From: Pomacea canaliculata
Taxonomy: Eukaryota > Mollusca > Gastropoda > Architaenioglossa > Ampullariidae
Direction: 5' to 3'
NCBI RefSeq assembly: GCF_003073045.1
Contig: NC_037603.1
Coordinates: 18,978,192 to 19,042,191 of the forward strand
Length of the DNA: 64,000 nt
Part shown: positions 17,318 to 62,331 of the stretch, piece by piece
Layout: the number at the start of each line of letters is the position of its first letter
Numbering within the stretch: the stretch's first letter is position 1
Program-made: the position numbers and the translations under genes
Notes under the pieces: generated by a model
What the model saw: the letters and a program-made list of their open reading frames with translations, nothing else
The model's database searches: none
Told to the model about the DNA's origin: nothing

Positions 17318-17480
17318 TCCACCCGGTTCGCATCATACTGAGTATACAGAGTTAGTTGTTGAAAGGGCATACTCAGCATGTTGCAGAACATGTCCTGATG
17401 TTCCAGTAGTCTGTTCCCCGCATACTCAATATGCCAAGATCTACAATAACAAGGGATTTAACTCTCGACTCGTTTTCCTC

Positions 17481-18290
17481 TCTCTCTCTCTCGCTCGCGC
17501 GCTTGCACCACACACTCACTCTCGCTCGTACGCACGCAAGCGCACACATGCACACTCTCGCTACGCACTGTCGCTCGTACGCAAGCGCACACCACACACA
17601 TACTCGAACGCAAGCACACACACTCTCCCTCTCGCTCGTACGCACGCAAGCACACACGTACACTTCTCTAGCTCGCACACGGAAGCGCGTGCACACACAC
17701 ACACACTCGCACTCACGCACGCAAGCGCGCACACACACACTCTCGCTAGCACGCAAGTACACACACTCGCTCGCACGCAAGCGGACACACACACACTCGC
17801 TCGCACGCGCAAGCATCCAAGCGCAAACACACACACGCTCGCTCGCACGCGTACGCACGCAAGCGCGCGCACACACTCTCTCACTCGCACATGCAAGCAT
17901 GCAATCCCACACACACTCTCTCTCGCTCGCTCGATCGCACGCGCACGCACGCAAGCGCGCAGCTCTCGCTCGCACGCAAGCACACACACGCAAGCACTAT
18001 CGCTCCCACGTGCACGCACGCAAGCACACACACTCGCTCGCGTGGAAGCGCACGCAAGCCCAACACACACGATCTCTCGAACGCGCAAGCATACAAGCGC
18101 ACACACACACACTCGATGGCTCGCGCGCTTTTGATCTCCACGTATCGATCGTTCTCCTCTCTCTCTCGCTCTCTCGCGTGCACGCCCACTCTCTTTCTTG
18201 AACGGGCACATTATACCTTCTCTCTCTCTCGCATGTGCATGTACACCATATACTAACCCCCTTTCTCTTGAATGTGCACGCACACACACA
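17481..18290. repeat. CT/CA-rich minisatellite core of the left inverted repeat
   Basis: Irregular tandem units built from CTCGCTCGCACGCAAGC and (CA)n, period varying by roughly 20-50 bp. Long six-frame open frames here are made only of Cys/Val/Arg or His/Thr/Ser and are not genes. Confidence 0.85.
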
Positions 18291-18763
18291 TAATAAATAA
18301 AAAAGAAATAAATAAGATTAAAATGAAGAGATGAAGAAACACGTGCAGTATTAAGAAAATAACAGAAATTACCTCCATAATTTTTTGTGGTTTCTGTGGT
18401 CCAATTTACTGAGCTACGTGCATTTAAGTATATTTATTGAAAATGTATTAACAAAAAAAATCTACAAAAAAAAAGTTAAGGTATTCTCTCGCTCTTTTTT
18501 TTTCTTAACTCGTTCTCTATTCTCCTTCTCGCGCACGTACAGATCTGTACACACGCACACACTCTGTCATTTGCAATTAACAGTAGTTAAAAATGAAGTT
18601 AATAACGTCCAAATTTGGTGTAGTCAAATTAAACTCCGAGGTTGAATTGATCCCAACTGGACCCTTCAACTTCAGCTGAAAACAAACAATTAACCCTCCC
18701 TCATCCCGCCCTTTTCAGGGGAACTAACTACTTCACAGTCCAGTTGCAGTTCCGTGGCGCGGA

Positions 18764-18814
18764 AATATAATCAAGAGACTGTACGACATACTAGCTTTGG
18801 ATCTGTTGAGTTTG
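18764..18814 (+). promoter_or_regulatory. Putative TATA-like promoter and leader exon, left copy
   Basis: A GGAAATATAATCA TATA-like element lies about 45 bp upstream of a strong splice donor (TTTG|GTAAGTAG, exon end 18814). Both are conserved at the mirrored position in the right repeat. The first coding exon of the plus-strand gene begins at 19614 after a TTCAG acceptor, so this segment is best read as its untranslated first exon. Start site and promoter activity are not proven. Confidence 0.45.
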
Positions 18815-19613
18815 GTAAGTAGATGCCACATTAATGTAAGAAAGTGTTGCTTACAATATTACCGCATAAATTGGACATATACATGGTAATGAAAAATGGT
18901 TTGATGCTTAGGACGGCGCATGTGTTGATGCTTGAGTCATGTCCGCAAATGTGAGAAAAAAAAAAAAAATAGAGATTTCAGGGAAATTTAAAGGATAATG
19001 GATAAAGGATAATGAACGTGTATTTACTAGAAGACATATGGTAGAAAGAGAACTAGTGTGCATACTTTCATGACACCCAAGTCTGGATTGGTAATGCATA
19101 AAGATATATTTAGGCCATTTAATTCTATAGTTGATGTTTTTATTTTAATGATATTTGAAATCAGAGTCAAATCTTCAATGTAAAATAACACAAATTGGTG
19201 TCTTGAAGAAATTCCCAAAAAAATTATATGCAAGTTTCAGGAAATAAGGAAATGCACTACATCTTTTTAGAAACACAATGCAATATGTGATCATGAAGTG
19301 TTACAGTCATGAGCTGATTTCTCTGAAATTTTTTATGTTACAAACATGTCTCATCTTACTATTATTTGAGAATGAGAATCAGAGCAAATGTAGAAAATCA
19401 ATTTAGGATGTACTTTAAACAAATCATCATGCTCAAAAATTGCACAGTTCCACTTGACCCAAACTTCTGAATTATAAATGGTGTAAATATAGTTGAGCTG
19501 CATGAGTACTCTGTTTTGATAATACATTATATGCAATATTGCCATATTTCATGAGAAGAGTATGTTTGATCTTTTCCTCACTTCTTGCATTCTGTCACTT
19601 TTTCTCTGTTCAG

Positions 19614-22600
19614 ATCATGGAGCTGACGAAAAAAAGAATTACTGCATTTAATGCCTTTTGCAGCCAAAAGCAAAAGGGTATGTTAATTTTTTCTCTGTGC
19701 TTTGAATCCTCTTATAATATGGTGATTTTCTTCTTATAATTCTATATCATTATGTACAAAAGTAGAGATTATTATAGATCTCTTGACTATGTAACCTTTT
19801 CTGGTGAGAGGTTTTAATTTTCTATACCTGTTGTGCCTATTATTAGGCACTGCTATTGCATCTATTGTATCATAACTGTTTAATTGTTTTTCTTTTTGCT
19901 AGATGATCCCCAGATAGGTCTCGGCTGCAAACTGTGGTCGAGAGAATGGCGTAGCATGGGACCTGTAGAGAGGGAAGATTACCAAAAAATAGCCAAGGGT
20001 TTGTCCTTAAAAGGACTAAGCCCGGATAAATGTTACCGAAACATAGTAAAACTGGTAGCTCTCTTATTACTCTTATGCTTTATGTCAATGTTGTAATTTT
20101 TCATAAAATTGTTGATGTTAGTAATAGATGCTGATAAACTTTAAAAAGACAAAACTAATAATTTATGGTAGGTGATTGTCTATAAGTTTAAAGCATTACC
20201 ATATAGTCTGAATTAGTGTACAGTATGAATTTTGATCAGTACAATAAAAGAATGCTAATAAACTTGTACAAATACTAATATTCTTGCACTTATATAGATC
20301 ATTCAGCACTTAAAGGAGACAGTAGATACTTTTTAGTCTCTTCTTTATTGATTACAGGTCAGACGTGTCATTTTATTTCTTGTATTTGAAGCTGTTTCTA
20401 CCTGTTGGAATTGTGAAGGCATGCTGAATTTTCTCTGTGTTACAGATAAAAGAACTACAGGAAATGCCAGACTCACAGTATGAGTCTGTGTGCGTCCTCA
20501 GTTTGCAAAATAATCAATTCGCTTGCAAGGGATTTGGTCCACTAACACATATGCTAGATGACTTCGAAATGAATAGCACGATCTTTGGTTTTGTTTCTAG
20601 AATAAGTGAAAAAGGCAAGTATTTTATGTAGCTGTTTCTATTTGAACAGTTGTGTAATATATTCCTGTTAACAGTAAAACCTAAATGAGCTAAAGCCATT
20701 AACAAAGAGATTATACACCTTCACAGTGTGATCCTGTTAGTGCTGCTGTCTGAATTGAAAGTTGATGTCTAGGTCACTTTGTTTTGGCATACAGCCAAAA
20801 TAGCAGTCTGATCGATCACTAATTACCAATGAACCATATACCTTCTTGGAGCCATACAAGTGGCCATCATAGGTCAACTTTTCTTATTGCTTAAATTGTC
20901 TCAGCCATCCTTGCAATCCATCAAAACTGATGAATGTGGCTTACATGTACTTTGCAGTCTTTCTACTGCTTAATTCACCTGTATCCAAGTGAATCATTTT
21001 TTAGCATTTCATACATTTCTTGGTCCATTTTGGCAGTTTCTTGTTATCATAGAAGACAACTTTTATTTCCAATCAAATTTATGTTGTTATAGCATGGAGT
21101 AAAGGGTTACATACATAAAAAAAAAATACAGCTGAACCGCAAAAAGTAAGGTGGTCATTCAATTGTTTTGCAAGTTTTAAGTAGTATTTTTATAATGTTT
21201 TATTTTATGGAAGTGTGCTATTTGATCTTTCTTTTTTAGCTAAGAAAGAGACTGTAATTTCTCTGAGGGGAAAAGTAAGGGAGAAGCTGTCAAAAATTGC
21301 TAGTAAGTGTCTTCCGTCATTTCACATGTACCTTCTCACATTTTCGTTAATGCATATTAACAATTTATGTATAGTTTCATAATTTTTTTGATGAAAACAA
21401 CTACTTTTATAATAGGCAAACATTCCAATAAGAATGATAACCAACTGTATGTGGTCCATTTGCTAAAATTCTTTAATGATTATAGAAAAAAGTATAAATT
21501 CTTTTAGCTGTTTGTATATCATGCTGCTTTATTCAGTGAATGCTTTCATTTCTTTCATCTAAAGCTCATGTTTCTGTCATGTCAAGCTTATAAAGCATTC
21601 AAGTGTCATTGATCTGACAGATGTAGTGTTTTTGAGTTTACATCAGTTTGCTAAACACATTTTAAATCTATAATTGTTTCATTTAAAGGAAACACTTAAC
21701 AGTTGTAACTGATTAAGAAAATTGTTAAAATGATAGTGTGTTAATGTTATTAGAATTGTTTAACTAACAAGTCAAGGAATACAGGGATTTATAGAATGTT
21801 GAGATATATACGGATGTTTGACGTGTTTTCAGAACGGGATCTTGGCCTAAATCAGTTTCCATACAAAAGATTACAGCGGGGAGAATTTGAGGTAGAAGGA
21901 GTACCATCATCTCTTTTGCCTCTGAAGCCCCTTTTAAAGATGAATAGCTTGGAATTAAAACAGCTCATGGACAGCGCTGTATCAATCAAGAGGTATGATT
22001 ACTTCAATTACTGTGTTTTAAAAGTAATCTCTTAGATATGATGGTCTTCCCCCAGCATCCCCATGCACAGTTTTAGATGAGAATACTTGTGCATACCATA
22101 TATCATACTGGGTAGATAAATATTTTTATATTTCTTATCACCTTTATATTGCTTGAGAGCAAATAAGCTGTGAGTTAAATTGAGTAAATATTAATTTCAC
22201 TTTACAGTGACCTTTCACTACGTAGTGGTTTGACATTGGAAAAAAATAACTCACCAACATGCTATTGCACATCAGGTCTTTACAGATAATAAACATTATT
22301 AAGAAAACAGTTAAAATTGATTGTTCTTGATTGGCATACACATAACTCTTGCAGGATATCTGCAACACATCTGGCAAGTCACCGTCATTCCCCTGAAGAT
22401 GCAACAGAAGAGACACACCATACACCAAACACAGTTATGTTACACTGCAGTGACACAATACATCAGATAGACCACAATAAACACACATATGACACAGTGC
22501 AGCAGAAAGACCCCATTGATATATCACATCCCATACCACACACTGTCCACCACACAGGCATAATGCAGGCACAAGACAAAGAGAACAGAGATACATCACA

Positions 22601-24722
22601 GGTTCAGATGCAGACAGGTGACTTGAGGTAATATCAAGTACAATTTTTTTAAATGTTTGTATTAGCTGTAAATAAATGTAGTTTAAATGTTGTTGATGAC
22701 AGATGTTGTATGTTGTTAGATGACAGAATTATCTTAAAACTGTCTTAATCATATAGTCTCACATGTGTGATGTGTCCGTCACACATAAACAGTGTTAGAA
22801 AGTGGTGCACCCAATTTATATTGTTAACTGGTATTAGGAGCAGAGCAAAATTAAGGACGAGGATAGCGCAGTCAATTTTTTTGGGGGTAATGTTTTTTAA
22901 ATAGAGATCCCATATGTTTTTCTGAGTTTATTTGACCCTTCTCAGCCATTTTGCTTCCTTTCCCTTTTTTTGTTCATTTGTGTGTTATTGTAGATATTCA
23001 CTGAATTTTGATATTTCACGGTCAACATACAATTGTGCATGTACTATGGATTTATTTAAAGTTCAGTATACCTTCCCATGAATTCCTTTAGAGAATATAA
23101 AATAGATTTTGTTTTATGTTTTCAGCAGGAATTTCACATTGGAGTCTTCTGGTATATTTTCTTTTATCTTTAAGTTTAAAGTCAATACCTTTTTTCAAGC
23201 TTTAATGTTTGTTTTTATCAGAAATCATACATCTGTTATGCTTATATTTATAAATACTTTTGAATTCATAACATTGTTGGTAAATGTTACATCTGATAGT
23301 ATTTCCTTCCTTCTCACTGATTTTCATCATTAGCATATCTTAGGCAATTATACATTTGTTTAATTATTGTCCACATGGAATAGTTAAGTATTTGAACAGA
23401 TTTAGCATGAAGCAAATAGCTAGTCATTTGATCCAATGGCCCTATTTAATGCCATCTTTAATGAATACATTAAGACTGCAGCAGTAATTTAATTTCAAAT
23501 GCACTTCATTTCAGGTGGTACTCAGCAGCAGACTGCTGTTTTGGGTGACTCTGGCGAGCTTGTTTCAGGCTATACAAACAAAGAAAATGAAAGTAAGTCT
23601 AAAAGACAAATTTTGTCACAGAAGTTTTGTCTTTTATGTTTGCTTTCAGTATTATTAAGCTTTAGAAGACTGTCAAATATTCCATGCTTGCCGTCTGCTC
23701 CTCAGCAGAAAAGAAACTAAACATGTTTAGTACACACATGAATTTTTACAGTTATATTTCATGGCTTTTATAGGCATTGAGGTGAATGTTACTTTTCTTC
23801 ACATAAATATATTTTCTTCGGGTTATTGCTTCTACCTATTTGTATTGCTTCTTTTCTTCTTCCACTGTTGCAAACTATTTTCCGCCAGAGTATTTTGTGA
23901 TAATGATTTGTTTCCTTTCTTGTCCTCCTCTGACATTTTATTATGTGGATATCCCTTTTGTTTAATGCTTCATTTCTGTCACTTATGTGTCTTTACTGCT
24001 TAGTTGTACTTCATTATCATCATTGGCCACCTGTTTATGTTGTACAGATTAACCTTGTAGACGCCCAGGTTGCATGCTTCTATGTGAGCAAGATTATGTC
24101 TGTATAAACTGTACACTATTATTATTATTTCAGGTGGAAATCCCCAGCAGATAACAGCTTCCATTGTACATCTTGGTTCAACCACAACCCAAGTTCAACC
24201 CAAGCCTAAAAGTAAGGGTAATCGAGCACTGTATATCATATATAGCTTAGGTTATGGCTTTCAATGTACTGTAGGTTTTGCTATTTGCATTGCTTATTGT
24301 CTTCTGTGACAGAGTTCCATACAAAGTACCTTGCTTTTTGCTTTCACTTTAGCTTCTAGCATATATTGCACCAAACAATTGGACCTGACACTAGTTACAC
24401 CATTAGTGTAATCCTTTCCTATGTAGGTTATTTTGTTTCTTTGTCAATACATTACTATGAAGGTGCTGATTGTCACATTTTCGAATGTTTTGCAGGGCAA
24501 AGACTTAGATGGAACTCAGAGGCACTGAAAGCATTAGAAGATAGCCTTGGCCCTCTATTTGCTCTGGATGGTCCCTTACCTGGATCTGACCGCCTAGAGC
24601 ACATTAGAAATAGTAAGCAAGTTTTACAGAAATATAGTGTACAGCAAATATATCAAAAGCTCTTTAAGATGATTAACAAAAAGAAAAAACAAGAAGAGAG
24701 TAAGACATTTGGACAGAACTAA
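19614..24722 (+). CDS. Companion protein of the KDZ-like element (HMG-like, SANT-like)
   Basis: Nine coding exons with coherent phases give 416 aa: 19614-19677 (ATG 19617), 19903-20054, 20446-20614, 21240-21302, 21833-21992, 22355-22617, 23515-23592, 24134-24211, 24496-24722 (TAA). Residues 1-~75 (RITAFNAFCSQ...LWSREWRSMGPVEREDYQKI) resemble an HMG box. Residues ~345-402 (LRWNSEALKALEDSLGPLFA...YSVQQIYQKLFKMI) resemble a SANT-like DNA-binding helix bundle often seen in transposon proteins. The middle (203-340) is His/Thr/Gln-rich and probably disordered. The third intron uses a GC donor (AAAG|GCAAGT). Likely a DNA-binding accessory factor for transposition or regulation; that role is inferred from position. 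Candidate poly(A) signals lie at 25215 and 25845. Confidence 0.7.
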
Positions 24723-26530: not shown

Positions 26531-26838
26531 ATGCCAGGTGCAAAAGATATAAAATTGTTTCATTTTATGTTTCCGTCATGTGCACTTTTTCTCACACTGT
26601 CTTCTTGCTTTTGTAATCGAAGCGCATCTCCAAAGTTGTTCAGTTTTCAGTTATTTAGCCGTGATACTAAACGCCATACGACGGTCCTGCAGTGCACCAC
26701 TCCTACCCCACTGAATGAGGTTTTTCCCACCATGGCTGTCCCCTATCATGCATGATGCCCTTCAGGACCACAACATCTTTGTGTAACCTGGAGGGAGGTC
26801 GACATAAGGAAACTATGCTTTACCGATGACACGATCTG

Positions 26839-28130
26839 ATGTCTGGTAACAAAAAGGAAGATTGTAATAGACAATCAGTCAAACTTAATGGCGTGAGTGA
26901 TCAGGACTTGTCAAATGTTTTGAAAAACTGTTATGCACGTTTTGAGAATCATGATTTTTCTGATAAAGTTAGGGCACTCAGTCACTTGTCCCTAATGATA
27001 ACAGTAATTTCTCAAGCCGATGTGACAAAACTGCTTAAGCGGGTTAGGGTTAACAAGGCACAGGGGCCACATGGAATATGTGGGCGAGTCTTGCATTGGT
27101 GTGCTGTTCAACTAGGTGGAGTGTTTCAACACCTCTTTCAATTCTCTATCGACTCGGGGCACATTCCTACACTCTGGAAACTCTCTAACATCATCCCACT
27201 CGCCCAAAAAGCTAATCCTAGTCAACCTAATGATTTTCGGCCAATAGCACTAACCTCCCTCATAATGAAAACCCTTCAGAAGATTGTCAAAAATCTCATC
27301 CTAACATCAGTAGAGAGTAAATTGGACCCACTGCAATTTGCTTATAGGAAGGGTAGGAGTGTTGATGATGCCAAGTTGTTTATTTTGAACATGCTGTATA
27401 AACATCTGGAAAAGCCCAAGACACATGCCAGACTACTTTTCGCAGATTTTATTTCTGCATTCAACACAGTGCAACCATACCTTCTAGCTCTGAGACTATC
27501 TGGTTTTGACCTACCACACCAACTGGTCTTACGGATAGTGGATTTTTTTACATGCAGACAGCAGAGGGTGTATGTAAATAGTAATTATTCTGACATTGTT
27601 GTTACAAGCACCGGGTCCCCACAAGATTGTTGTCTATCACCCTTGTTGTTTATCTTGTATATTGACAGCTGCAGAAGTATTCTGGTTTCGCAATCTCTCT
27701 GTCCATGATAGGAATAGTTTGAATGGCATTGTCCACATCTGTTCTAAGATAATTGCTATCAAATAGAGGGACTTAACTTCCTTCTGTGACCAACAACTAG
27801 TAAAGAAAGCTTCCAGCATTCTGTCCATACCTGATGTTGTGCTAGTGGGGGAATTTGTTTTATTAAGTTCAGGTAAGCGCTATGCCATGCCTGTATATTA
27901 AAGCAATAGGCATCTGAAATCTTTGGTGCCATCAGCAGTCCAGCTACTCAATCACAGATGAACTATCAGCGATGTGTGTGTGTGTGATGTGTTGGTGTGC
28001 ATGGGAATGATTTTTAAAAAAAATATATATTTATTGGAAACAGAGCACACCTCCCATTGAAATTGCCCATTGGGACTAATAAAGTTTATTGTTATTGTTT
28101 TTGTTATTGCTATTGTTATTGTTATTGTTA
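26839..28130 (+). mobile_element. CR1/Rex1-like LINE fragment, internally deleted
   Basis: An 870-bp open frame (26839-27708) encodes part of a reverse transcriptase: NKAQGPHGICGRVL, then NDFRPIALTSLIMKTLQKIV, FADFISAFNTVQPYL, and STGSPQ...LSPLLFILYI. These follow the order of CR1/Rex1-group reverse transcriptases. Right after ILYIDSC the sequence jumps to the family's C-terminal part (27685-27950, homologous to the copy at 36205-36905), so the catalytic Asp-Asp box and thumb are deleted. The 3' end is AATAAAGTTTATTGTTATTG followed by a (TTATTG)n-like tail to ~28130. The 5' part is missing or unrecognised in 26530-26838. Confidence 0.8.
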
Positions 28131-28135
28131 ACACC

Positions 28136-29036
28136 GAAATACATGATCTGACACACAAGCTCGCCACCAGCGCGAACGCTTACGGCAAACAAATCATCAC
28201 GGACGAGAGTGCTCCTACAAGATTATGTAGATGAAAATCAAATAGTCACTTGGCGAACGAGAAGGAGTAAAGTCAATGTCCACCAAAGCTCCCTCTAACA
28301 ACATCACAGGATCGGAAGCGTTGGGGAGCCCAAGCCGGTGCTACGTCTCATAGTGTCCTCGACGAGTGGTATTGGTGAGTCTCGTATGAGTGGGCCGGCT
28401 TGCTGCCAATTCGGCTAGTGCCAGTTAATCGAAGGATGGTGGTGTTGATTAGGAGAACCAGTCCCAATACTCGCAGAAGTCCTGTTATCCATGGAACATA
28501 AGACTGTTCAAAGCGCGGTTGCCACCATCGGGAAACACTAGGTCTTGATTGCATGTGAAGTCTTGAAGAGAAGTAAAACATCGATCGTTCTAGAAGTGCA
28601 GATAGCTTGGTCCGAATAGTCAACATGCCACATGAGACTGATACGCAGGACTCATTTTCAACATGGTAACGCATTAATCATCCCGCGAAGATGCCTCGTC
28701 CAGCCCGCTCAGTTTAACCACATAGAACATAATTTTATTGCTTACGTCATGATTCTGTTGAAAGCGCCATGTTCTTGTCCGTGAGAATTTCGATCATGTC
28801 CAGTGATCATGTCTGACTAGAATCAGGTTGCGCATCACCAATAGTCAATTCTCATAACAACAAAGCGACGCAAACCGGCTGCCTCGGCGGTGTCGCCGGT
28901 ACGACACTTCAGATGTCCGTCAGCTAGGGTACACTTAATGGTGGTCAACACTGAGACAGAGAGAAATACCGGCTGGGTAAACAGACTGTCCACACCATGC
29001 AAGAACTGGCGTACAGCCTCTCAAGAGACCACATCA
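28136..29036. other. Unassigned GC-richer segment
   Basis: Differs in composition from its AT-rich surroundings and has no recognisable open frame on either strand. It lies between the LINE tail and the 5.8-kb nested element, and may be residue of another insertion. Confidence 0.3.
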
Positions 29037-29793
29037 GAATAGCATGAAAACATTTTAAAAACGTTTTAAAAAACGTTTACATGGTTGTATCTAATAAGGT
29101 TTTACGTTTTGTTGTTGATAATTATGATGGCGTTTTAAAAACATTTTTGTGAAAAACATTTACCAAAAAAACATTTTTAGTAAACATTTTAAAAACTTTT
29201 TAAAATGTTTGAAAATAAAACATTTAATAACAAAAATGTTAATAAATGTTTTATAAACGGTTGGTACAATGTTAACGTGGTGCTTTATGGCTGCTGCGTC
29301 ATGACGTAATTTTTTAAAAGACGTCACTATTTGATTCGCGGGCATTCGCTTCTCCTGTGGAATTTTAGAGCCAGTCCACGTGTAGATACTGAAAATCCTC
29401 ACCAAGAAGCTTTTTTAAAGACTTTGTTATATTTGTCTTATGACTAGGTTGATAGTTTAAAATCATGCAGTTTTTTTAAAACATCAATGCTACGTAACGG
29501 TAAACATTTTGCTATTCGTTCTTGTGGATGCACGTACGTCCCATGATTATGTTCCACGCGGCGCGACATTTTCTCTGCTGACAACTGTATGTTTGAAAAC
29601 CAAGGTTGTAATCTTTTCGTCTTTGTTTACCATACACGTACTTCAGGTTCTTCGTAATTATACGGAAACGCTATATATACCGTGTTCTAGTACAACACAC
29701 ATTTAATGTCTGCTTATTGGGGTGTTGATGTGTCAATTTGTACTTTCTGATTGAGCGCTCGTACATAAGTCTAATACTTAGGTTACAAGGCAG

Positions 29794-32700
29794 GTGATAG
29801 TTCACATCATTCGTGTTCGTCTCGTAGCTGGTGCGCGGACGAAGCGGGAGAAAATTCAAAAAACTTGTGAAAGCAGAGTTGGCAGAACTGAAGAAGAAAG
29901 ATGTATTCAAACAACACTGATACAAACGATTCACGATTCCAGTGTCGTAGAGAAGGTGCTCACTTTTAGATCTAAGGAGTGTCAAATTAATAACAGTTTC
30001 GAACCAGCAGACAACCAGAGGACTCTCATCGTAACATCACGCCAGCAATATTTACCGACTAAATACAATTTGGATGAAAAAATGATGATGATGTTTGGAA
30101 ATCTAATTTTAGTGAATTTGAAGATAATTATAATTGATGATCTCAGTTTGATTCAGCGATATCTTCAGACCAGCGACAGTGAACCAGATACAGATTTGGC
30201 CACACAGTTGGCATATTGGGCGCAACATTTAACATTTCAACAGTTCACTTTCAGTACTTCTTGCTTGTTGGGATCAAAGAGCATCCTGGTGAATAGTGGC
30301 TTGCTGTGGAATTCATTGGCTAAAACGTTATCTCGTGCTGAAATGGTACCTGGTATTGTGTAATCATTTCTATTATTCTGGTGTAAATTTGTGTTACATT
30401 GTCTTAAATTTAACTTAAGGATGATAGAGTTTTTAATACATTAAATAACGTGACATTAGTAACGGACATGTGGCATTGCCAACAGAAGCGGGACTGCAGT
30501 CAATCACATCGATAGTCTCTCGCAGCTGAACGAAGATCATGCTATCTCTCCCGTATTTACATAGGCTTCCTTGAGTATACAGGTGTATGTGAAAATTTGA
30601 GTGCAGTCATAATCTCCTCTGACGGAATATGACAGATGAAGTCAGTAACGTCCAACACTCCATGAAGACACACAGTTTGTAGCCTCCTGGTAAGAGTTCA
30701 TAGAGGATTGTTTATTTTTAGCACGCGAAACGTGTGGAGGCGCTTGAACCAAGTGAGCTGACAAAATGACACCTTAAGGAGGGAGCGGGTCTGCATATAG
30801 TGACATACGTGGATCTGCTTCAAGCTGTTTGGCATGTTTGTGGGGTTCAAAAGGGTACTTTGTATGACTTTTTTACTCATTGTCAGAGATATATGTATAT
30901 TATAGAGATTAGATGTTTGATGACTTCGTCAGCCTGGTTAATATGTTTGTGTCAGTCTCTTGATAAAGTTACAAGTATTGTTCATATTTATTTTGTAAAA
31001 GGTTTAAGGTAGTGTTAGTGTATTTAGTCACGCAGACTTGCTTAGGGTTTATTGTGGTTACAGACTGGAACATACAGCGCATGACCATTAACATCTCAGC
31101 GAACAGAACAGTTAACTGATTTTTGTCAGTGAAATTCATATTGTGTGGTAAGCATTGCATGCCATTATTCTCGATTGTTTATTATAATTCACAAATTAAT
31201 AACCCTTTCAGATGAGTATTTGGTGCCAAGACGAAAAGTGGATAACAGCCAGGTATACATCAACTTGGATACAACAGATGCTGAACAGCACTAAAGGTTG
31301 AAAAAGATGCGGAAGAGGAAGAAAGAACAAGTAGTCACATTGTGTCTTGTTTGAGTGTATAGAATGACAAGGGGATAGGAATCCTAGGTTGGAGAACAAC
31401 TTACAAGATCAGTACAGATTTCAGTATTGCGTTCTCTCATTTCAATTTTTCATGGAGGGTAATATTGATATATGATAGGTATAGCCTAGGAATTATTTAT
31501 TATTTTGATTTCTTAATCTTTTACTCCAGAAATTCTTAAATTTTGTCATAATTGTCATTTCACTGCACACTTATTAATAGGTATGCTTGGGTTAAGTTTA
31601 GGTTAGGGCAGAGAGCCCAGACGAGGAGAAGAAGACGACTTTAGATGGAAATCAGTGCATCCAGCAGTGCCAGCAGGACCATTGCCAGAACTCATTGGCA
31701 ACCACAAGTGGAAAACAAGCGTTTATGCCCACTAGATAAATGCACTAACCACCAGAATATTGGCACCTGGGGTGTTGTGGACGACGTAGCACCCAGTGAC
31801 CAACCCACGTAGTGGACTCTCAGCAAGGAGTACAAGAGAGGGTGACGAGACTCACAACTGCAGCAGTAAAGAGGCGGTACCGTCAGAGAGTGTCTAATGA
31901 AGGTAATTCAGGACAATTTTATATTATGGCGGAGTTTCTTGGCTTTTTGGTTTTGCTATTAATTTTGGTTGTGAATTCCTTCGCACAATCTCAAGTTGAA
32001 CATAGTGTTTGGTTATATGTTTCTTACTGCCATCCCAATCACCGTTGATGGCTTTATCACCTATAAAAGTAATTGTCCACTTTTGCTCACAGTGCTATGT
32101 TCATACTGTTGCAGCATTTGCCTGGGCTCATTCTGAAACAGACAGGAGAATTGAAATTGATGCTACAGGAAGTAAAAGATATGGTTGATTCATTCACTGA
32201 TAAGCAAAGACCAGCTGCTCCAGCAAAGGATGCCTGAATGTTGCGAGACGATTTGATCTTCTGAATAGAACACAGCAAGAGTCTGTTGGAACTGGATGGA
32301 CGCCTTGATGATGAGCCTTTCATGAATTACTCGTACGTAAAGCAGATGTCATTGTTAAGCCATGATTGTAATGATAATCTGTAATAATTTAGGGGAATTT
32401 TAAAGCATAGCTTGACATTTTTGAAAAAAAACTTATGTTTTTATAGGGAATTTGCATTGGTGGGAGAATGATCAGTTCTTGGTCATCTGATCATACATAT
32501 ATAGTGTGGAACACACATAAGTCAAGTTTTAAAATCAGTTCAAAGGGTTTCAGCCTCATAAACTTTATGGTTTATGGGGAAGGAAACATTAAATGTGCGC
32601 TTTGTTGTGAAAGTTTGCAGTTTAAATTTTTGTATTGCCCTTGAATTGTAAATAATTAAGCCATGTATGATTTTCACTACACCTTTCTTGTTTTGATGAT

Positions 32701-34439: not shown

Positions 34440-34815
34440 GTTTGAAACGTGAAACTGTGAAAAGTATGTGTGAACTGTGAAACATTTACATTAGGTTTCA
34501 AAACATTTTTAACAAAACGTTTTAAAAAACGTGTCCTTAGAAACATTTAAATTAGGTGTTATAAAAACATTTTAAAAACGTTTTTAAACATTTACATACG
34601 AATATTTATTAAATGTTTTTAAAATGTTTTACAGAAAAATGTTTATAAAAGTTTTAAAAATATGTTTTAAAATGTTTTACAATGTTTGCAGAAAACGTTT
34701 TTAAAACATTACTTTGATGGGCATGATAAACATTTTTAAAACGTTTTCTGCAAACCTTTTTAAAATGTTTTATGTAAACATTTAAAACGTTTTTAAAACG
34801 TTTTAAACGTTTGCA
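34440..34815. repeat. Palindromic ACGTTTTAAAACGT-type subterminal repeats
   Basis: More than ten copies of AAACRTTTTAAAAACGTTTT-like motifs, self-complementary, mirroring 29041-29265. They may be binding sites of the element's transposase and can fold into hairpins. Confidence 0.75.
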
Positions 34816-34825
34816 TGCTATCTGG

Positions 34826-36190
34826 GCACACTCCACCTCCCTGTGTGTGCATCTTCCATCCACCTCTTCGATGTCCCACAACCACCCACACTAACCATAT
34901 TATGATAATACATACTGGAACAAAGTGTGACCCTGGATTTCCCACGCCCAGACGTGAATGTGCATCTATTTTTTTTCTGAGAAAGTTCAAACTTATTCAT
35001 TGACCATACTGACCCTCCCCATGCATAACATGAAGCCGCGACATTAGTTCATTGAAAGAACACCGGCAGCTTTTGTCTCCAAACCGGGGCATGCGTAACA
35101 GTTTACACCAGGTAATAGAAAATGGCAGACTTTGAGGGATATCATTTACCTGTGAAAAAACATCTACAGCTGATGGTGAATGGGCAACGTGTGACAAGCG
35201 TGAACTAATGTACTCGGTAGTACGACTCCCCGTGCTGTCTTACCGTGCTGCATTCGTAATTGTCAACCTTGACCTGCTTGACCTATTGTTTAATCACAAG
35301 TGGGTATTGGGTGTACACGACAATCACGCACGTACACGCACACACTACTTGAGCGCAGTTGCACACACGGCCAGTACACACATGACAGTACACACTGCAA
35401 CAAAACTGTGTGATGCTAAAGAAAAGTACTTTGTCGCGCTCACAACAAGTAATCGAGGGCTATGCCAGGGAAAAGAATGTCCATTTTCGCGAATGTCCGT
35501 GCGCACACACCCACACCCCAAAGAAACACAAACACGAAAGCACACTAATTTTTTCATGGATTGTTTTGTTTTATTAAAGCCTGAATAGTGAATTCCACAC
35601 GTAATTTTTTACATGAATATCATATTCCTCCAAGGGTGAAACCAAAGAAACAAAACCCATGAAATATCAGCCACATATTGGAATCACAATAACAAAACTA
35701 ACTACGCATATAAACAGGTCACTAGAGGTAGTAAAACCCTAGCAAACTAGCGAATCTCCAACATGCATATTATAATCACCATAACAAATGTTCTCAATAG
35801 TGCATTTATTTGAACCTTAATAGACTGAACAACTCAGCCAGCTAATAGCAAGAGACAACCGAACTGCAGCATTCAACTCATCACAGGAGTTTGATTCATT
35901 AGATAAATTTTGGGGCTGGACGATAATATTTTTGGCCCATATCAATGTAATGTGCTGAATGCCGTTAACGTCATCGCAAATAAAAACATAATTCTTACAA
36001 CTCCAATATAAACTACAAAGGTTTCTCTTCATAATTATGTGTATAACCAAACTTAAGGAAAAGAAATAGCTTAAATTTATTTCAAAATACAACAGAGGAC
36101 AAAACATCAAATTTCCCTTTCACTCAAAAAGGAACCTGAAGAAAACAGTTCTTGGTGTGTGTTGTCTATATGTAAATAACTTTTCACTAC
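34826..36190. other. No gene recognised
   Basis: Contains a CA-rich patch (35325-35400) and a 126-codon frame (35208-35588) of low-complexity Thr/His character that I do not consider a gene. Confidence 0.4.
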
Positions 36191-36204
36191 CATCAATATT
36201 ATTC

Positions 36205-36905
36205 ACAAGCCCATAATAACAATAACAATAACAATCGACTTTATTAATCCCAACGGGCAATTTAAATGGGAGCTGTGCCCTGTTTCCAACAAATATTTTT
36301 AGATGGAAAAAAAAAACAAAAAAACAAATGCACACCCACCCATCACACAAACACACACAGCTGACAGTTCATCTGTGATTGAGTAGCTGGACTGCTGATG
36401 GCACAAAAGATTTCAGATGCCTATTGCTTTAGCATACTGGCATGGCATAGCTGTTACCTGAGATTAATAAAACAAATTCTCCCGCTAGCACATGTTCAGG
36501 TATGGACAGAATGCGGGAAGCTTTCCTAACTAGTTGTTGATCACAGAAGGAAGTCGAGTACCTCTGTTTAATACCAATTATCTTGGAACAGACGTGGACA
36601 ATGCTACTCATACTGTTCCTATCATGGACAGATAGATTACGAAACCATGATACAAGTGAGAAGGATAAAAGACTCACAATAAAAGACTGGTAGAAACAAC
36701 CTAAAATTGCACTGCTAACGGAGAAACTATTTAACTTCCGCAAAAGGTACATTCTTTGCTGGCCAAGTTTGACAATGTGTTCAGCGTTTAGAGTCCATTT
36801 AAGCTGGCAATCTTAAACAGTTCCCAGGTACCTGAAAGAGGTAACAGTTTCAACAGGTTTGCTATGTATCACAAGCCATTCAGAGTAATGAAGGTTGAAC
36901 TTCAT
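36205..36905 (-). mobile_element. CR1/Rex1-like LINE, 5'-truncated copy in opposite orientation
   Basis: On the minus strand it reads VETVTSFRYLGTV, a stop, then QLKWTLNAEHIVKLGQQRMY, LLRKLNSFSV and SWFRNLSVHDRNS, the reverse-transcriptase C-terminal region. It ends in the same 3' untranslated sequence and TTATTG-type tail (36205-36245 on the plus strand) as the copy at 26839-28130. Length fits ordinary 5' truncation. Confidence 0.8.
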
Positions 36906-37560: not shown

Positions 37561-37587
37561 CATGTGGGTAACACGGATGTTTACTTA

Positions 37588-37983: not shown

Positions 37984-38025
37984 TCTCTACACAAGTTGTG
38001 ATTGTTGTTTTCATATACGGCAGAC

Positions 38026-41000
38026 TTAGGGTCTGCAAGCTGTGCAAATAAAATATTGAGGCCCTTCTCGTAGCTGGTTGCCAACAGCCTGTAGATTAGT
38101 GGTGTTGAGATGAAGTCTTTTTGTGAGTCGCATGGCAATTTTCTGACCATCTGCACAAAACATGTAAGGTGTGAGTGACCCAAAACATTCTATAGAGAAA
38201 ATGGTCAAACAGTACTTATACCATATTATGCATGCTGCCTATATGCAACCATCCCAAGAAAAATGTCATAACTGAAACATGAATCAAATAATTATTCAAC
38301 AACAAGCAGAGTATATAATCTTACTGTATATGCCTTGAAGGTAAAAAAAATTACAGTTAGAATGCAAACTACAGAGTTTCCTCATGGGAATAATGCCTCA
38401 GATGACTGCAAATATACAATAACCCCTTAAGTCATGCAGTGTATGATAGTGCAATCTTGTATATTCTTAATGGAACTGTATGATTAATTAATTAACTAGA
38501 AGATTTTAAATATTTCATACAATCCTTGCTGCCCTGAAATGTGAAGGAATGACATTTTACTCGAACATCAACCTGTACAAGAATTACATTTTCAATGATA
38601 ATGAATTTTAAAAAAAAAAATACAAACCAGCATAGCGCTTCTTCAGTCCCAGCAAGTGCTGACGCTCTGTAGAAAGCTTCCTGGCCTTCTCAATCAGTGG
38701 ATCAGTCCCTACAGCAAATCAAATGGTCAGATCACAACAAGCATCAATATATGTTATAATAAAATGCATGACAAGATCACTCATGGTAATGATAATCAAT
38801 AAAATTACTGCTGGCATGCAGTCTTCTTACTAGCACATGGACAATAATGAATTATCATTTTTAAATGCTTTAATTAACTTAATTTTTTGGTAGCTTCTGC
38901 TTCAGAAAAATTGCTTTGCTTGATTATTCCTACTTTTACATATCTTTTGTTCAGCAAAGGTGAGTCTCCATATGACATATATCTTATTCCTAGAGCCTGT
39001 ACTTGATATCACAAAATGCTGCAGCTATCATCATATCACATGCTCATTTCTGTGTTTGAAGCATTAAGACAACTGACAATAGTTATTGTGCGGTATAATC
39101 TCTTTTACATTGTTAGTATGTCTTACATTTTGATGTTTGACATACCTCTTTGATCATCATTTGTCACTAGAATCTGTGTCAGTTGATGAAGCCAATCCAC
39201 AGCATTTCCATCATCTGAAGTTAAAGGCAGTTTCCAACAAAGAAAAGCACAGCAATGAGGGGCACAAAAATCAAGGTGCTTAAAGGGACTATTATCTCTG
39301 GATTTATGAATTCTTTTTGTTTAGGTGTCATACACAGGCTTCGGTTTCTCTTACATTTGTTGTGATGGTAGAAATATATTACAGAGAGATACTAATATTA
39401 AGCATTCTATTCTATCCTGTATTATTCAATAAGTGTTACTTACACTTTCTTTCCACAATCACTGATGAATACCTTGGAATTCACTTGAATTTGCCTTGCT
39501 TTCTTAAGCCTTACAGAAAATGTCTGAACTGAAAGGAAAAGTAGTAATGCAAAGTCATTTGCAAAATTTGTTAAAAAAGCACCTTGAAAAAAAAAAAAAA
39601 TAAAATAAATAACTATGCATCATACTTGTCAACAAAGACATTGCCCACAAAACGATCAAATACACAGTGGATCAAAAGTACCAAAGAAATAAACAAATAT
39701 GCTGCCAATTATTTTACAGTAGTTTTCAGTTGTTATAACTACGTAAGTGTTTTGCAGCCTCTTTTCACAACACACATGTATAATGGGCTGCTCCATAAAT
39801 TACCAATAGAAAAGAAAATTCTCCGTCCATAATTAAGTAGAGCACTGCTTAGAAGATCCTGTCTATTCGGCAGTGTCATCTCCTTGCTCCATAAAAATTT
39901 TCGTAGGTAGGACCACAATCTTTCCGTGGCTTCTCCATCTATTAGACCGGTTCCTTTGCAGTATCGCTGTCCAAATGTCATCTACAATAGTACCATAGAA
40001 TCAATCGTTGAAAATGAAATGTCTCTAATAAACAAATTGCATCTTTGTATATTTCTTATTCTTGGTTGTGCATACTGCATTTATTTGTATCTATATTTAT
40101 GTGTATACAATAACACTATAGCAAATAATTGTATTATTATTAATCACTGCAGATAACTAACCTGACACCTTGTGTTATGAGCAAAGCTATGGAAAACAGG
40201 AACAACCAATTTGAATCTCTCTGCAAGTTGTCCAGTCAGTTCTGGACACCTCTGTTGAAATAAAACAATAAGGCTAAATATACAAAGCTACAGCTCCAAC
40301 TCAACACATTTTTATCACACCTTAAGATATATGATGTAATCATTCAGTAGTACATATTTATAAACTCTGTCTTCTCCAAAATAAGAAACCAACTAAAATA
40401 GTACATAATAATCATCACTTAACTTTGGTGTCATTATACACCTGGTGTAAACCACCATGCAGGTGTTTTTTTTATAAAACCAATACCATGCTACAGACAA
40501 TACCAATAACATACAAAACAATGTCAGTTTATTTTATCTGAAACACCTAAGATTCAACTGGTGTTTTACATACCCAAGATGAGCTTGCAGTCTACAGGCA
40601 ATATCATACATGACAATCTGCTTTTCATTTGTAGCACCAACCTGCCTTGAAGCAATCTGCTTCATAATATAGACTGGATATGCAAATCTGAAACAAATTC
40701 TAAAATTAGTAACATGTTATATACTAGATCTATGTGTACTGTTACATTCATGACTAATATTCATAAATTACCTTTCTCCATGCTCCATGTTCACAAAATA
40801 GAGGGGAAATCCATGGTGACACACAGAGCCAAACACTCCTTTTATATCCAGATTTGCACTTTTATTTTTAGCCCTAACCATGTCACCAGCCTGAAAGTCT
40901 GAGCACTCCTGAAAGTAAGAACATCGTACATAAATTAATAATGTTGATATTCATAAGAGAACAACAACATTCATATTATTAAAAATAAACATTTCAGTTG

Positions 41001-44000
41001 ATAAATTATCACAGAAGACAATTATCTGGTTTATTCGAACTTATCATTGATAGAAACTGATAGAAACCTCTTACATATCAATATGTAATACTGGTAAAAA
41101 TGTTACTTCTTTCATTTTATGTTAGATTGGTTGCTACGCAGTACTGTTAACTATACTGTTTTAGCAACCAAAATTAAATGGAACTAAAATACTGCACTCA
41201 CTGATGATTCAGGGACAGATTTTGAAACTGCTTGGCAGTGATTATTAACGAAGTCCCTGACACTGTCATCTGGACAAAAGACTGTAAATCTTGCATACTG
41301 GAGTCCTGGTCCAGACCCAGAGTGCAGTTTGTGGACAAGTCCAAAATTAGCGTCCATAGAGACGACAGACCTTTCAGGTTTCTACCAAAAATATATCATT
41401 AAATGGTAATCTTGATATAATCATAAATGTATCTGTAAAGCACCAGTTCTTGCTACAGGCATTCATGATGCATAATTTTGCGAAACTGTTAAACACATGA
41501 GCAACATCCACCCACACATGGAAGCAAAAAAAAAAATGTATGTTTTACTAATGCTTTGAAGGCAGTCAGCATAAAATTCTAGCAAATATAGTGGCAAGAA
41601 GTCTGGTTAGAGGAATGTACAACCAGAGAGAGAGGAGAAGATAAAACCAGACAGTGTGTAGATGTGAACTGAGATAAATGCTTTGATGGGGCTAGCACTA
41701 CTGAGTCACTTAAAAGTTAATTGAACATAATGATCAGTATCTACTTTTTTTTTTTTCACATTTCCCTAAATCCTGCTTTAATGATTTATTTTAAACAGAT
41801 GTCTGCCTTACTAAAAATCTAAACCCATAATGATTAAAAAAAATCTTGTAGCTAGCAAAGCAGTTGAAACCTAAATGCAAAGAAATGTGTAATAAATCCT
41901 GTTTAAGCAATGACTAATTGGCACTAATACAGACATCTAGCAGACAGTTCAGACACATACCAATGTACATACTGGGCAGTTCTTGCCCACAATGTCTGGA
42001 GAATGTGCCATCTCAAGGCACGACACTTGATGATGATGGAATTCAGTTAGTGCGTTTCCTGAAAACAATATATTTGCAAACTAAAATACTTTTTCTTGGC
42101 ACTTAAACTAACTGCAAATATCCAATGACAAGCTTCAAAAAATCAGTCAGTGGTATAAACACATTTGGCATCCATTAATTTTTCAGTACAAATGACACTA
42201 TTTATAAATGATAATGCAGTTTCACATAATGCACTACATAAATTATTACCCAGTGCCAGGTAGAGGTTTCTGCAGTCAGTTGTGTGAGGAGGCAGGAAAG
42301 TAGTTCTTCTTTTTAAGGCAAAGCAAAACTTTTGCAGAGATAATTGACCTTCAAGCTGTAGCATTCGCCCTAGCTCCATCAGTGTTATCGTGAAGGCTGT
42401 TTCTGGCTGTTTGGGTGTTGCTGGCCATAATCCCCTTCTAACTAAGGTAACAGCTTCTGGCTCACACTGGCAGAAATGGGATTTTATTTTATGCTGTCTC
42501 CCTGCAACAACATATCATTTATCCAATAGTCTGAATAGGATCATTTAACTGGGCCAACATACCTTTATGAAAGCATTTTACCAATCTAGCTCCTTGTTAA
42601 GTATGATCAATCCTTTCCTACAAATGCAGTCTTCAATAAGGTGAATGCCATTGAAAAATCATTTCCTGAGGCATTGAAGATACCATTAGAAATTATTGGT
42701 TTAAACACTAGAATGTCATATATTGTATATTGTAATGTTTGCAAGGAGTCCTTGAGGGATCTGATGGCATAAAGGAACTTTTTTGAGAAACAAATAGTTC
42801 CTGGGTTTGCTTTTTTACCCCCTACATAATGTACTTCTTATACTGCTGCTGCTAAATACACATACCCAATGCATCAAAAACTCTTATTTGACGAGAGTAT
42901 ATGCTGTCACATGAGTGTTCATGGATGAGGGTTGTTTCTTTAATAAGGGGCACAAACATATAAACATCCTGAAAAAAAATTAACATAAGCAAATTATCAG
43001 ATAGACAAAAAATAAGTTATGTTCTGTAACTGCAGGAAAAAATAAGTATACAGCTATGCAAGCTAATTTAATATTTTCAATGTAGCAGTTATCTGTGTAG
43101 TGTTTATTAATATTTGAATTAAATTTTAAGCATACACAGTGCTAACAGTGTAATGCATTCCAATAGGCTAAGATTTTGAATAAATATACTTTCACGAACG
43201 TTATACATTTAGTACTTACATTTTTCCAAACATACGCCTGATGGTACATTACCATGCGGTGGATATTCTCATTACACATCATGCAATACAGAGTGTTGGG
43301 TCCACAGTCAGGACACCATATGATTTCAGGAACCTCAGAAGAGCCACATGAGGAACATTGGTTTGAAGCAGGACAAAATCCTTCCATCCGGGCAACAACC
43401 AGATCAGATCGTATTTTTCTCCATCCTTCTGCCTCGTTTACTGCTCTTTTTTTGTGGCTGCTAGGTTCTGCCACCTCAGATTCATCTGTTAATAGTGCAT
43501 AGTTAATAGCACAGGTAAAATATAATTTAAAAGAGCACCCATTAGAACAGATTGTCAATCTCTTCAGTGCTCTACATCCAACTATAGAAAATTATTCCAC
43601 TTGGAAATAGTTCTTAAATAAATTTGCATGTTCAAAGCACTGTTGATCAAAATGCTTATGATATATCCTACTTACGCCCAACAACTGACAGTTGTTATGT
43701 GACAGCATTGCATTTTATTCTGCCAACTTTTATGAATTATTATGCAGAGCATCATCTAATATTACTAACAACTGTTATACCCCTCAGTGTAAGTAAAAAT
43801 TCTATACAAATCTAATTTATATAAGTATTAATAATGTTCTATGAATATTTGTGACTAATGAAGTTTACCATACTTTTATTATTCTAATTTAGAATGATAG
43901 CTAAGGTTGACTGTCTCTGTCTCATTTAAATAAACTATGACTTCCAATACATCACTGAGAAAATACAATAAACTGGCTCTTTGTGCACCAGATTACCATG

Positions 44001-44490
44001 TGTCATCCATTGATTTATGCTTTAATTACTCATGCAGATGTAGCTATGGAATGATAAACATGAGAAAATACAGCTATGGATGTAAAATACTCTGGTGTGA
44101 GGAATATGCAGGAGGTATTTTACTTATTAAGTATACTATTCACCGAATACATATATTCAACTAACATATATATATATAGTGCAATTATTGACATTCCTAG
44201 TTACAATGGTAATTTAGTTTTTCACATACTGGTTTCAAGTGGAAAGGTTACACTGGGTTCTTGCTCCTCCTGTTGAATGATTCTGGCTTCATGCTCCTCC
44301 TGTTGAATGATGCTGGGTCTATTGCCTTGTAGTGAGTCTATAGACCTCATGAGGTCTCGGTACTCCTTTACAGTACATCGCACCTTACGGGACTTACCCT
44401 TCCTTCCATTGTCTTTGATAGTACAAACACTACCTAACAGAACACATTTTCCTCTTCCACTTCTACGCATTGTTGATTACAGATACAAAT
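38026..44490 (-). CDS. KDZ-superfamily transposase
   Basis: Thirteen exons in coherent phase (minus strand, 5' to 3'): 44490-44230 (ATG 44470), 43485-43220, 42968-42866, 42501-42250, 42058-41961, 41381-41202, 40908-40772, 40687-40574, 40249-40162, 39981-39804, 39214-39146, 38708-38628, 38150-38026; 643 aa. Residues ~118-160 form a Cys/His cluster (CSSCGSSEVPEIIWCPDCG, LYCMMCNENIHRM). Then HFCQCEPEAVTLVRRGLWPA and NALTEFHHHQ, typical KDZ-associated blocks. Probable catalytic acids: Asp330 in VSMDANFGL, Asp454 in VMYDIACRL, Glu510 or Glu513 in GLIDGEATERLW. It would cut and join element ends as an RNase H-fold DDE enzyme; the roles assigned to these acids are inferred. The right inverted repeat supplies its probable leader exon. 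The true C-terminus is uncertain. Confidence 0.85.
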
Positions 44491-45519
44491 CTGCAAAATG
44501 ACAAAAATACAGCACAATAGATAACTGTTGAGTCTAGAATTCCAATTTTTCATTTGGTCTGAACTTAAATATCATTTCTCAAATGATAAATACATATTTA
44601 TCCTGTCTACAGACTCTTAGAAAATAGATCTCAGTGATAGAAAGCAGCTGGAGCCATTCACAAAATTGAGCAGATGCAAAAAATTACAGTCCTCCACTCC
44701 CGTTTTGTTGCTGGTACCATCAACATGCAATAAGACTACCCACCAAACACAAACCTCACAAACCCTTTTAAGGTTTGTCAACCATACTGAGAAAGACAAT
44801 CCAGTGGAATCTCAGCACTTGAACTGCTCGGTACTAAAATATTTTGGTCTTTGACAATTTTAAAAAATTTATTTTTGGTGCTTAACCACTTGCTTGGCAC
44901 TCAACCATCATGCTAAAACAAGAATGAATATCATGTTTAAGTGGTGCTTAAAAAGCATCACTTTGTGTGAATTATTTAAAGAAATAAGCATATTCCTTTG
45001 TGCTGTTCATGATTTTGTACTTTTAAAGTATACATATATGCAAACAATTATACATTCAGTCATTGTGGTACCACAAACTTTATTTAGTGCTAAATGTGAA
45101 GAAACAGGAAAACAGTAACAATAATTTTAAATAAAAAAGGTCAGTGAAAAGTATGAGAATGGTATAGGTATGCTTTAAAGTAGCCATTCACTATGGATAT
45201 CGACAATATTAAAACATGAGACCATTAATTAAGTTAGATGAAATAACGAAAGTAGCAAAAGTGGTAAAAAAAACAACATATTTAGTTCTATATTTATAAT
45301 GCTATAATAACTGAATTTTTTTTAAATAAAACATTCAAAATATGCCTTACTTATCATGTGTGTAAATGCCATGCTTTATAATGCTATGACTAATATACTG
45401 GCGATAAAACATATTCAATGCATTTACACTAGTTCTTAGTGGGGGTTGGAGGGGGGTAGGTGCTAGGCAACACTTCTTACAATATGGATTAATTTGATAA
45501 CACAGCTGCATCTACTTAC

Positions 45520-45570
45520 CAAACTGAACAGATACCAGCTAGTATGTCGTACAGTCTCTATGATTATATT
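45520..45570 (-). promoter_or_regulatory. Putative TATA-like promoter and leader exon, right copy
   Basis: Mirror copy of 18764-18814: GGAAATATAATCAT on the minus strand, then a leader ending TTTG|GTAAGTAG at 45520. The first coding exon of the transposase begins at 44490 after a TTTGCAG acceptor, so this is its likely untranslated first exon. Confidence 0.45.
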
Positions 45571-46039
45571 TCCGCGCCACAAAACTGCAACTGGACTGTG
45601 AAGTAGTTAGTTCCCCTAAAAAGGGCGGGATGAGGGAGCGTTAATTGTTTGTTTTCAGCTGAAGTTGAAGGGTCCAGTTGGGATCAATTCAACCTCGGAG
45701 TTTAATTTGACTACACCAAAATTGGACGTTATTAACTTCATTTTTAACTACTGTTAATTGCAAATGACAGAGTGTGTGCGTGTGTGCAGATCTATGCGTG
45801 CGCGAGAAGGAGAATACAGAACGAGTTAAGAGAAAGAGAGAGAGAGAATAACTTAACGTTTTTTGTTTTTTTTGGTTACATGTACATGTAGTATAAAATT
45901 AAAGTGATATATTTTAAATAAATATACTTAAATGCACGTAGCTCAGTAAATTGGACCGCAGAAACAACAAAAAATTATGGAGGTAATTTCTGTTATTTTC
46001 TTAATACTGCACGTCATTCTTGGTTTTAATCTTATTTAT

Positions 46040-46595
46040 TTCTATGTGTGTGTGCGTGCACATTCAAGAGAAAGAGGGTTAATATATGTGTGTACATGCG
46101 AGACAGAGAGAACGTATAATGTGCCCATTCGAGAGCGAGAGAGAGGAGAACGAGTGGAGATCAAAAGCGCGCGAGCCATCGAGAGAGTACGTATGTGTGT
46201 GCGCTTGCATGCGTGCGAGCGAGAGATCGTGTGTGTTGCGCTTGCGTGCGAGCGAATGTGTTTGTGTGCGCGTGCGAGCGAGAGAGAGTGTGTGTGTGCT
46301 TGCGTGCGAGTGTGTGTGCGTGTGCGCTTGCGTCCGGACGAGCGAGAGTGCGCGTGCGAGCGAGAGAGTGTGTGTGTGTGCTTGCGTGCGAGTATGTGTG
46401 TGCGTGTGCGCTTGCGTACGAGCGAGAGGTTGCGCTTGCATGCATACGAGCGAAAGAGTGTGTGTGTGCTTGCGTGCGAGTATGTGTGTGCGTGTGCGCT
46501 TGCGTACGAGCGAGAGTGCGCGTGCGAGAGTGTGCATGTGTGCGCTTTGCGCTTGCATGCGTACGAGCGAGAGGGAGTGTGTGGTGCAAGCGAGG
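46040..46595. repeat. GT/GA-rich minisatellite core of the right inverted repeat
   Basis: Inverted counterpart of 17481-18290: units GCTTGCGTGCGAGCGAGAG plus (GT)n. Open frames on both strands are low-complexity and rejected as genes. Confidence 0.85.
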
Positions 46596-47028
46596 GAGGA
46601 AAACGAGTCGAGAGTTAAATCCCTTGTTATTGTAGATCTTGGCATATTGAGTATGCGGGTGATTGATCACATAGTCCAACGCTCTAAAGGTAGTTTAGTT
46701 TTCAGAACAACAAATCTTACTCTAGTTGAAATGGCACACTGAACTGGTTTTCTAACCAAATGAGCATTGAAACATCCACGGACGTGCATCGGCATTTTAA
46801 GTTCGTGGAAACACCCAAGTATATGTCGTGTTACATTTTCCTCTACAGAAATATTGACTAGCTAAAACAAATTTAACGGGAAAGGGTAAGCACCTATATC
46901 ACAAGAAATTCTAAACAAAAGTGATCGCTCACAATCAATAAGACGATAAGAAGTTTACGCCCCTGATATTGGATCCTACTTTCGAATCTCAATCATCTCG
47001 TGTGGTTCATCGAGAGGTCTCATTGAAA

Positions 47029-62180: not shown

Positions 62181-62202
62181 TGTTATGCTTGAGAAGGACA
62201 GT

Positions 62203-62203
62203 C

Positions 62204-62240
<37 letters not shown>

Positions 62241-62255
62241 GGCAGGCAGGCAGGC

Positions 62256-62328: not shown

Positions 62329-62331
<3 letters not shown>

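Follow-up and report, generated by a model that had tools for sequence, protein, structure and literature searches.

A probable two-gene KDZ-superfamily DNA transposon with kilobase terminal inverted repeats in Pomacea canaliculata

What kind of mobile element encloses two convergent genes between terminal inverted repeats (TIRs) of more than 1 kb, and how much of its length is its own? The question is raised by a 64,000-nucleotide stretch of the Pomacea canaliculata genome (the window), in which the original prediction, made from the sequence alone, had placed a KDZ-like transposon of ~29 kb. The window corresponds to C14:18978192-19042191 in the genome searched (440,159,624 bases, 24 contigs). 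We consider it likely that a two-gene DNA transposon of the KDZ superfamily is present here as a damaged copy, its core of ~20-21 kb having been swollen to 29.3 kb by nested elements. The features are listed in Table 1.

Architecture, copies and target-site duplications

Of the 1129 aligned columns between the TIRs of the window copy, 1076 are alike (95.3%, not counting gaps); the local score is 1589.5, whereas 20 mononucleotide shuffles gave 43.5 at most. The inverted identity claimed for the outer 64 bp is exact at 17417 and 46659, and the homology, which had been said to extend more than 1 kb inward, reaches 18853 on the left and 45464 on the right. The boundary at 17417 did not hold. The true left terminus is at 17320, because other copies extend out to this position: 11 of their 13 displayed ends align to it (those of L013 and L015 do not), although the first bases differ at L022 and L014a. 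Most displayed ends of the window family have the tip CACCCGG. Relative to a copy on contig C3, the right end of the window copy stops 97 bp short, at 46659.

The C3 copy, at C3:19585723-19613788 (28,066 bp), has both tips, flanks that differ from those in the window and an exact 7-bp target-site duplication (TSD), TTGTAAA. Between its TIRs, 1260 of 1342 aligned columns agree (93.9%). The interiors of the two copies are 97.4-98.8% identical by BLAST, or 1.0-1.4% diverged when substitutions only are counted. TSDs were read in a set of eight short stretches plus the C3 copy and L014. Five of the eight two-ended copies had exact 7-bp TSDs, namely C3, L047 (CATGTGA), L048 (TGCAGCC), L049 (TGAAGAG) and L054 (CATTTAG). 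L047-L054 are short derivatives, ~250-450 bp long where both ends were found, which share the outer ~110 bp of the window-family tip.

The left flank of the window copy (16735-17319, plus strand) is a duplicate of window 1686-2308 (86.7%), a host segment, and the left end of the element sits exactly at the end of this second host copy. To the right of the element (46501-50500 examined), no continuation of the sequence beyond 2308 was seen, which probably reflects a deletion or rearrangement at the right junction. An inverted segmental duplication or an assembly artefact would fit this right flank and the lack of a TSD in the window. Such an origin is nevertheless highly improbable, given the nearly identical unit on C3 with other flanks and a TSD, and the many dispersed copies of the ends.

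The ~29 kb first proposed overstates the element's own size, because it includes an 8,701-bp segment (27576-36276) that C3 lacks and in which a 5.8-kb transposon is nested. After removal of inserts and absent stretches, the window and C3 copies are each ~20.6-21.1 kb. Even minus the 8.7 kb absent from C3, the element is unusually large for its superfamily, as the original prediction had said. The absence from C3 is likely to reflect a deletion there, since a LINE-like frame spans the edge of the segment in the window. C3 carries two inserts. The first, of 5.8 kb, lies in exon 4 of the transposase, has a 15-bp repeat at its flanks and is LINE-like by eye; the second, of 1.2 kb, is LINE-like. 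Within the window copy, 36328-36653 matches 27677-28002 in inverted orientation at 88%. A relative of the nested transposon (87.7%), with a 44-bp inverted repeat, lies inside another TIR copy on C4 (L026 1583-7095); this transposon of 5.5-5.8 kb is present independently in the window element and in the TIR of L026.

The transposase and companion genes

The predicted transposase matched the Pfam KDZ model (PF18758) with E=3.3e-39 (135 bits, cut-off 26.6). CxC2 (1.1e-13) and CxC1 (1.6e-11) matched an overlapping stretch, both above cut-off. KDZ transposases are usually counted among the DDE enzymes. No other transposase was named by Pfam when the exon pieces and the two gene models were scanned, and a PDB search matched no solved structure to the predicted protein. 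The exon models were built manually on frame displays; the exon ends are predictions, and some splice scores are weak. Automatic exon chaining gave implausible extra exons in the transposase tail and the companion, and the hand-set models were used instead.

The minus-strand gene had been described as a KDZ gene with 13 phase-coherent exons. Its domain and phases were borne out, its full length was not: exon 13 ends at a stop, and compared with C3 the window lacks 2 bp at this place. With the transposase cut short in this way and the right end truncated, the window copy is probably not autonomous, that is, immobile by its own means. The C3 transposase carries lesions of its own. The window and C3 transposases differ by 6 synonymous and 6 nonsynonymous changes (p=0.029 for a departure from neutrality), and for the remaining pairings of the window, C3, C9 and C1 copies dN/dS was 0.36-0.76. 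These four copies of one transposase subfamily are about 96-98.8% identical at the DNA level (~96-98% for those at C9:7.43 Mb and C1:30.90 Mb), and distances of 1-4% suggest fairly recent activity. In the stretches read, homology of the C9 and C1 copies extends to window positions 44521 and 45445, so that it stops before the right TIR or just where that repeat begins on its inner side. KDZ-like sequence is common in the genome, with 17 matches to the Pfam model and at least 87 exon matches to the window transposase protein (68 of 249 candidates scored).

The second gene was predicted as an intact nine-exon companion on the plus strand, convergent with the KDZ gene. Both points stand: its predicted exons are phase-coherent and open, homologous relatives exist in the genome, and the two genes face each other between the TIRs. 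The predicted intron after exon 3 has a GC donor. In the C3 companion 16 bp are missing from exon 6. Pfam gave no HMG_box match in the window companion and no TET/JBP dioxygenase match at E<=10; the single structure match had E=0.42. Weak Pfam matches (FYRC at E=0.0088 and others) were below cut-off and were not adopted, and a Myb/SANT-like C-terminus, suspected by eye, was not supported by Pfam.

Table 1. Positions of the element, its genes and its nested insertions in the window
Feature	Position	Strand	Remarks
Window copy of KDZ element	17320..46659	.	29,340 bp; right terminus without outer 97 bp
Left TIR	17320..18853	+	Tip CACCCGGTTCGCA; outer 97 bp (17320-17416) unpaired at the right end
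Companion gene	19617..24722	+	9 predicted exons, 416 aa; frame displays, relatives in genome
Companion exons 1-5	19617-19677, 19903-20054, 20446-20614, 21240-21302, 21833-21992	+	GC donor after 20446-20614
Companion exons 6-9	22355-22617, 23515-23592, 24134-24211, 24496-24722	+
LINE reverse-transcriptase-like open frame	26830..27705	+	By eye; partly shared with C3
Segment absent from C3 copy	27576..36276	.	8,701 bp
Nested 5.8-kb transposon	29035..34826	.	Lies between LINE-like fragments
LINE-like open frame	36432..36812	-	By eye
KDZ transposase gene	38026..44470	-	13 predicted exons, 645 aa; frame displays and Pfam
Transposase exons 1-7	44470-44230, 43485-43220, 42968-42866, 42501-42250, 42058-41961, 41381-41202, 40908-40772	-
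Transposase exons 8-13	40687-40570, 40251-40162, 39981-39804, 39214-39146, 38708-38628, 38150-38026	-	Early stop in exon 13
Right TIR, truncated	45464..46659	-	Alignment of ends and comparison with C3 copy

A second family and the linkage of the two genes

A diverged family with the same plan is found at C21:20569-43895. Over 23,327 bp from tip to tip, a companion relative (plus strand) and a KDZ gene (minus strand) are convergent between TIRs of ~1.3 kb, which are alike at 1248 of 1268 aligned columns. When C21 was compared with the window by BLAST, the transposase exons matched and the TIRs did not; the tip start CACCCG is common to both families. The C21 companion relative has exons 1, 2, 4 and 5 in the same order, with splice phases that agree at the displayed ends. 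In 90 codons from exons 1, 4 and 5, which were picked because they could be aligned and thus carry a selection bias, its comparison with the window companion gave pS 0.87 and pN 0.27. These values indicate long-term amino-acid constraint on the companion between both families.

Four further loci match the C21 transposase at 96.7-99.6%. All nine ends read for this second family (L055 and L057 at C21, and L058-L064) adjoin ATC/GAT trinucleotide repeats, and the tip query itself started with 60 bases of ATC repeat. Read from the outside inward, the repeat is ATC at six ends and GAT at three, with impure ATC/AAC at L059 and GAT plus GGT at L064. At C21 both ends read ATC, a pattern not expected from simple insertion into a single repeat. 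An end expected near C7:14507700 was missing from the stretch read.

A protein search gave 31 companion matches; outside the window and C3 these were 30-53% identical and fell, by our own count, into 15 loci. By the coordinates of the matches listed, companion and KDZ genes were convergent within ~20 kb at five places: the window, C3, C21, C7:17.79-17.80 Mb and C6:8.36-8.38 Mb, the last of which has a tip of the second family at C6:8359849. By our own arithmetic, ~0.02 pairs within 20 kb were expected by chance versus 2 seen, for 15 companion loci and the 13 KDZ loci of the Pfam-model search, with the window and C3 left out.

The original prediction had also asked whether the terminal repeat occurs genome-wide without linkage to KDZ genes, and here the answer is mixed. 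The window-family tip has at least 51 matches in the genome, and among the matches listed only the window and C3 tip copies have a KDZ match within 30 kb (by coordinates). Self-comparison of 13 other loci revealed no paired long inverted repeat in 12 of them; in L026 the one repeat to appear was that of 44 bp belonging to the nested element, and L022 had a pair of 38 bp close to its tip. That the element is a unit is still indicated by the two copies in the window and on C3, the TSD of C3 and the C21 family with the same plan. Could the TIRs instead be those of an unrelated element which another transposase mobilises, with the KDZ gene as cargo? Most of the tip matches lack a nearby KDZ match among those listed, and many short copies share only the outer ~110 bp, both of which would fit this origin. 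It is very unlikely, as two families with unrelated TIR bodies both start with CACCCG and enclose the same two gene types, and Pfam named no other transposase in the pieces and models scanned.

Several observations weigh against a mobile two-gene KDZ element. The window copy has no readable TSD, because its right end lacks the outer 97 bp, and of the eight two-ended copies three (L050, L051 and L014) have no exact TSD; L052 and L053 each have one end that could not be resolved. The exon ends of both genes rest on prediction. The KDZ genes at C9:7.43 Mb and C1:30.90 Mb have no right TIR in the stretches read and no listed companion match. Pairs on the same strand occur at C7:18.57-18.60 Mb and C1:43.20-43.21 Mb (the latter weak, E=6e-5). 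Nine of the 15 companion-like loci have no nearby KDZ gene among the matches listed (C4:24.84, C4:24.85, C4:32.31, C7:13.69, C7:13.78, C12:23.13, C11:7.18, C7:29.49 and C5:1.92 Mb). Neither Pfam nor PDB yielded a convincing match for the window companion, and the HMG_box match, found only with exons 1 and 2 of the C21 relative (E=9e-5), scored 23.3 bits, below the cut-off of 25.4. Between the window and C3, the companion differs at 1 synonymous and 13 nonsynonymous sites, which indicates no constraint (p=0.17 for an excess).

From the TSDs and the KDZ domain, we infer cut-and-paste transposition of the two-gene element. Recognition of the CACCCG tips by the transposase, possibly by way of its CxC cysteine cluster, would be followed by excision of the element and by its reinsertion at a staggered cut of 7 bp. 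The HMG-box-like companion might bend or bridge the long ends, ~20 kb apart, for pairing, or assist otherwise. A helper role is suggested by the conservation of the companion and the weak HMG-box match; it is the least certain step, and we propose it only tentatively. Retention of the companion in both families points to a use by the element, but not to which use. The companion may instead be a passenger or host-interaction gene, captured by a common ancestor and kept for effects on silencing or chromatin and not for transposition, a role proposed for the TET/JBP genes of fungal KDZ elements in the accessible text of PMC12730594. The lack of constraint between window and C3 and the companion-like loci with no KDZ match listed agree with a passenger; the orientation, position and splice phases kept in two diverged families, together with the strong long-term constraint, do not. 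We hold the passenger role to be possible, at somewhat less than an even chance.

A wider reading is that the two-gene element represents a distinct, two-component animal KDZ lineage, with a transposase and an HMG-box companion on kilobase CACCCG-tipped TIRs, 7-bp TSDs and a sister family that prefers ATC/GAT repeats. This is doubtful, the more so because the query for the second family began in ATC repeat and nine companion loci have no listed KDZ neighbour, two facts that also temper our confidence in the main reading.

Outside the element, the window contains a tandem array of ~84-bp units at 13443-15536, C2H2 zinc-finger-like by eye and decaying toward its right end. An open frame just to the right of the element (46942-47280) resembles by eye the first part of a cytochrome P450, and a run of tetranucleotide (CAGA/CAGG) repeats lies at 62192-62331.

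Comparison with known KDZ elements and two-gene transposons

We file the element under the KDZ superfamily and in no narrower group. The literature on animal KDZ elements, as far as its accessible part goes, is sparse. The accessible part of the literature searched on KDZ-group and giant DNA transposons, which did not cover the original Zisupton paper, held no element of this layout. Zisupton is counted among the superfamilies without DDE transposases in the accessible text of PMC3706591. According to the available portion of PMC12730594, Zisupton and a Dileera family have 8-bp TSDs, in contrast to 7 bp in the window family.

Like Zisupton of Pristionchus pacificus, the window element has a many-exon animal gene with a KDZ domain and TIRs. 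The nematode families differ in having 18 and 31 exons and proteins up to ~1400 aa, and the accessible text reports no TSDs detected and mentions no companion (PMC9297572). The many introns, which had been taken as a novelty of the window element, are thus not one. KolobokP, from molluscs and other animals, is likewise a DNA transposon with large ends that carries a second gene besides its transposase. As described in the accessible text, it belongs to another superfamily, its long terminal repeats (~450 or 660 bp) are direct, and its second gene is a His-Me finger nuclease (PMC9587614).

KDZ1-KDZ3 of Cryptococcus neoformans share with the window element a KDZ transposase with a CxC domain, TIRs and TSDs. 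They differ in size (9.2-11 kb), in TIRs of 139-241 bp and in carrying CxC1; their TSDs are 8 bp (4-8 bp for KDZ2 and KDZ3), and a companion gene is unmentioned in the accessible text (PMC12810828). TSD length alone is not decisive in view of these values. Compared with the Cryptococcus lengths available to us, the two families in this one genome have TIRs several times as long, and they share a second gene. Whether a KDZ transposase needs a dedicated partner protein, and what role very long ends play, are questions that can now be tested.

Like Kyakuja, with its fungal TET+ families (Kojima 2025, PMC12730594, accessible text), the window element belongs to the KDZ group, has 7-bp TSDs and 5'-CA..TG-3' termini and carries a second gene. 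The second gene of the TET+ families is a TET/JBP dioxygenase, whereas the window companion gave no such match. Kyakuja is described there without TIRs, and the window element is set apart from this description, and not filed as Kyakuja, because its TIRs exceed 1.1 kb. The combination of 7-bp TSDs and CA..TG tips, as in Kyakuja, with long TIRs is relevant to the criteria that separate the KDZ groups.

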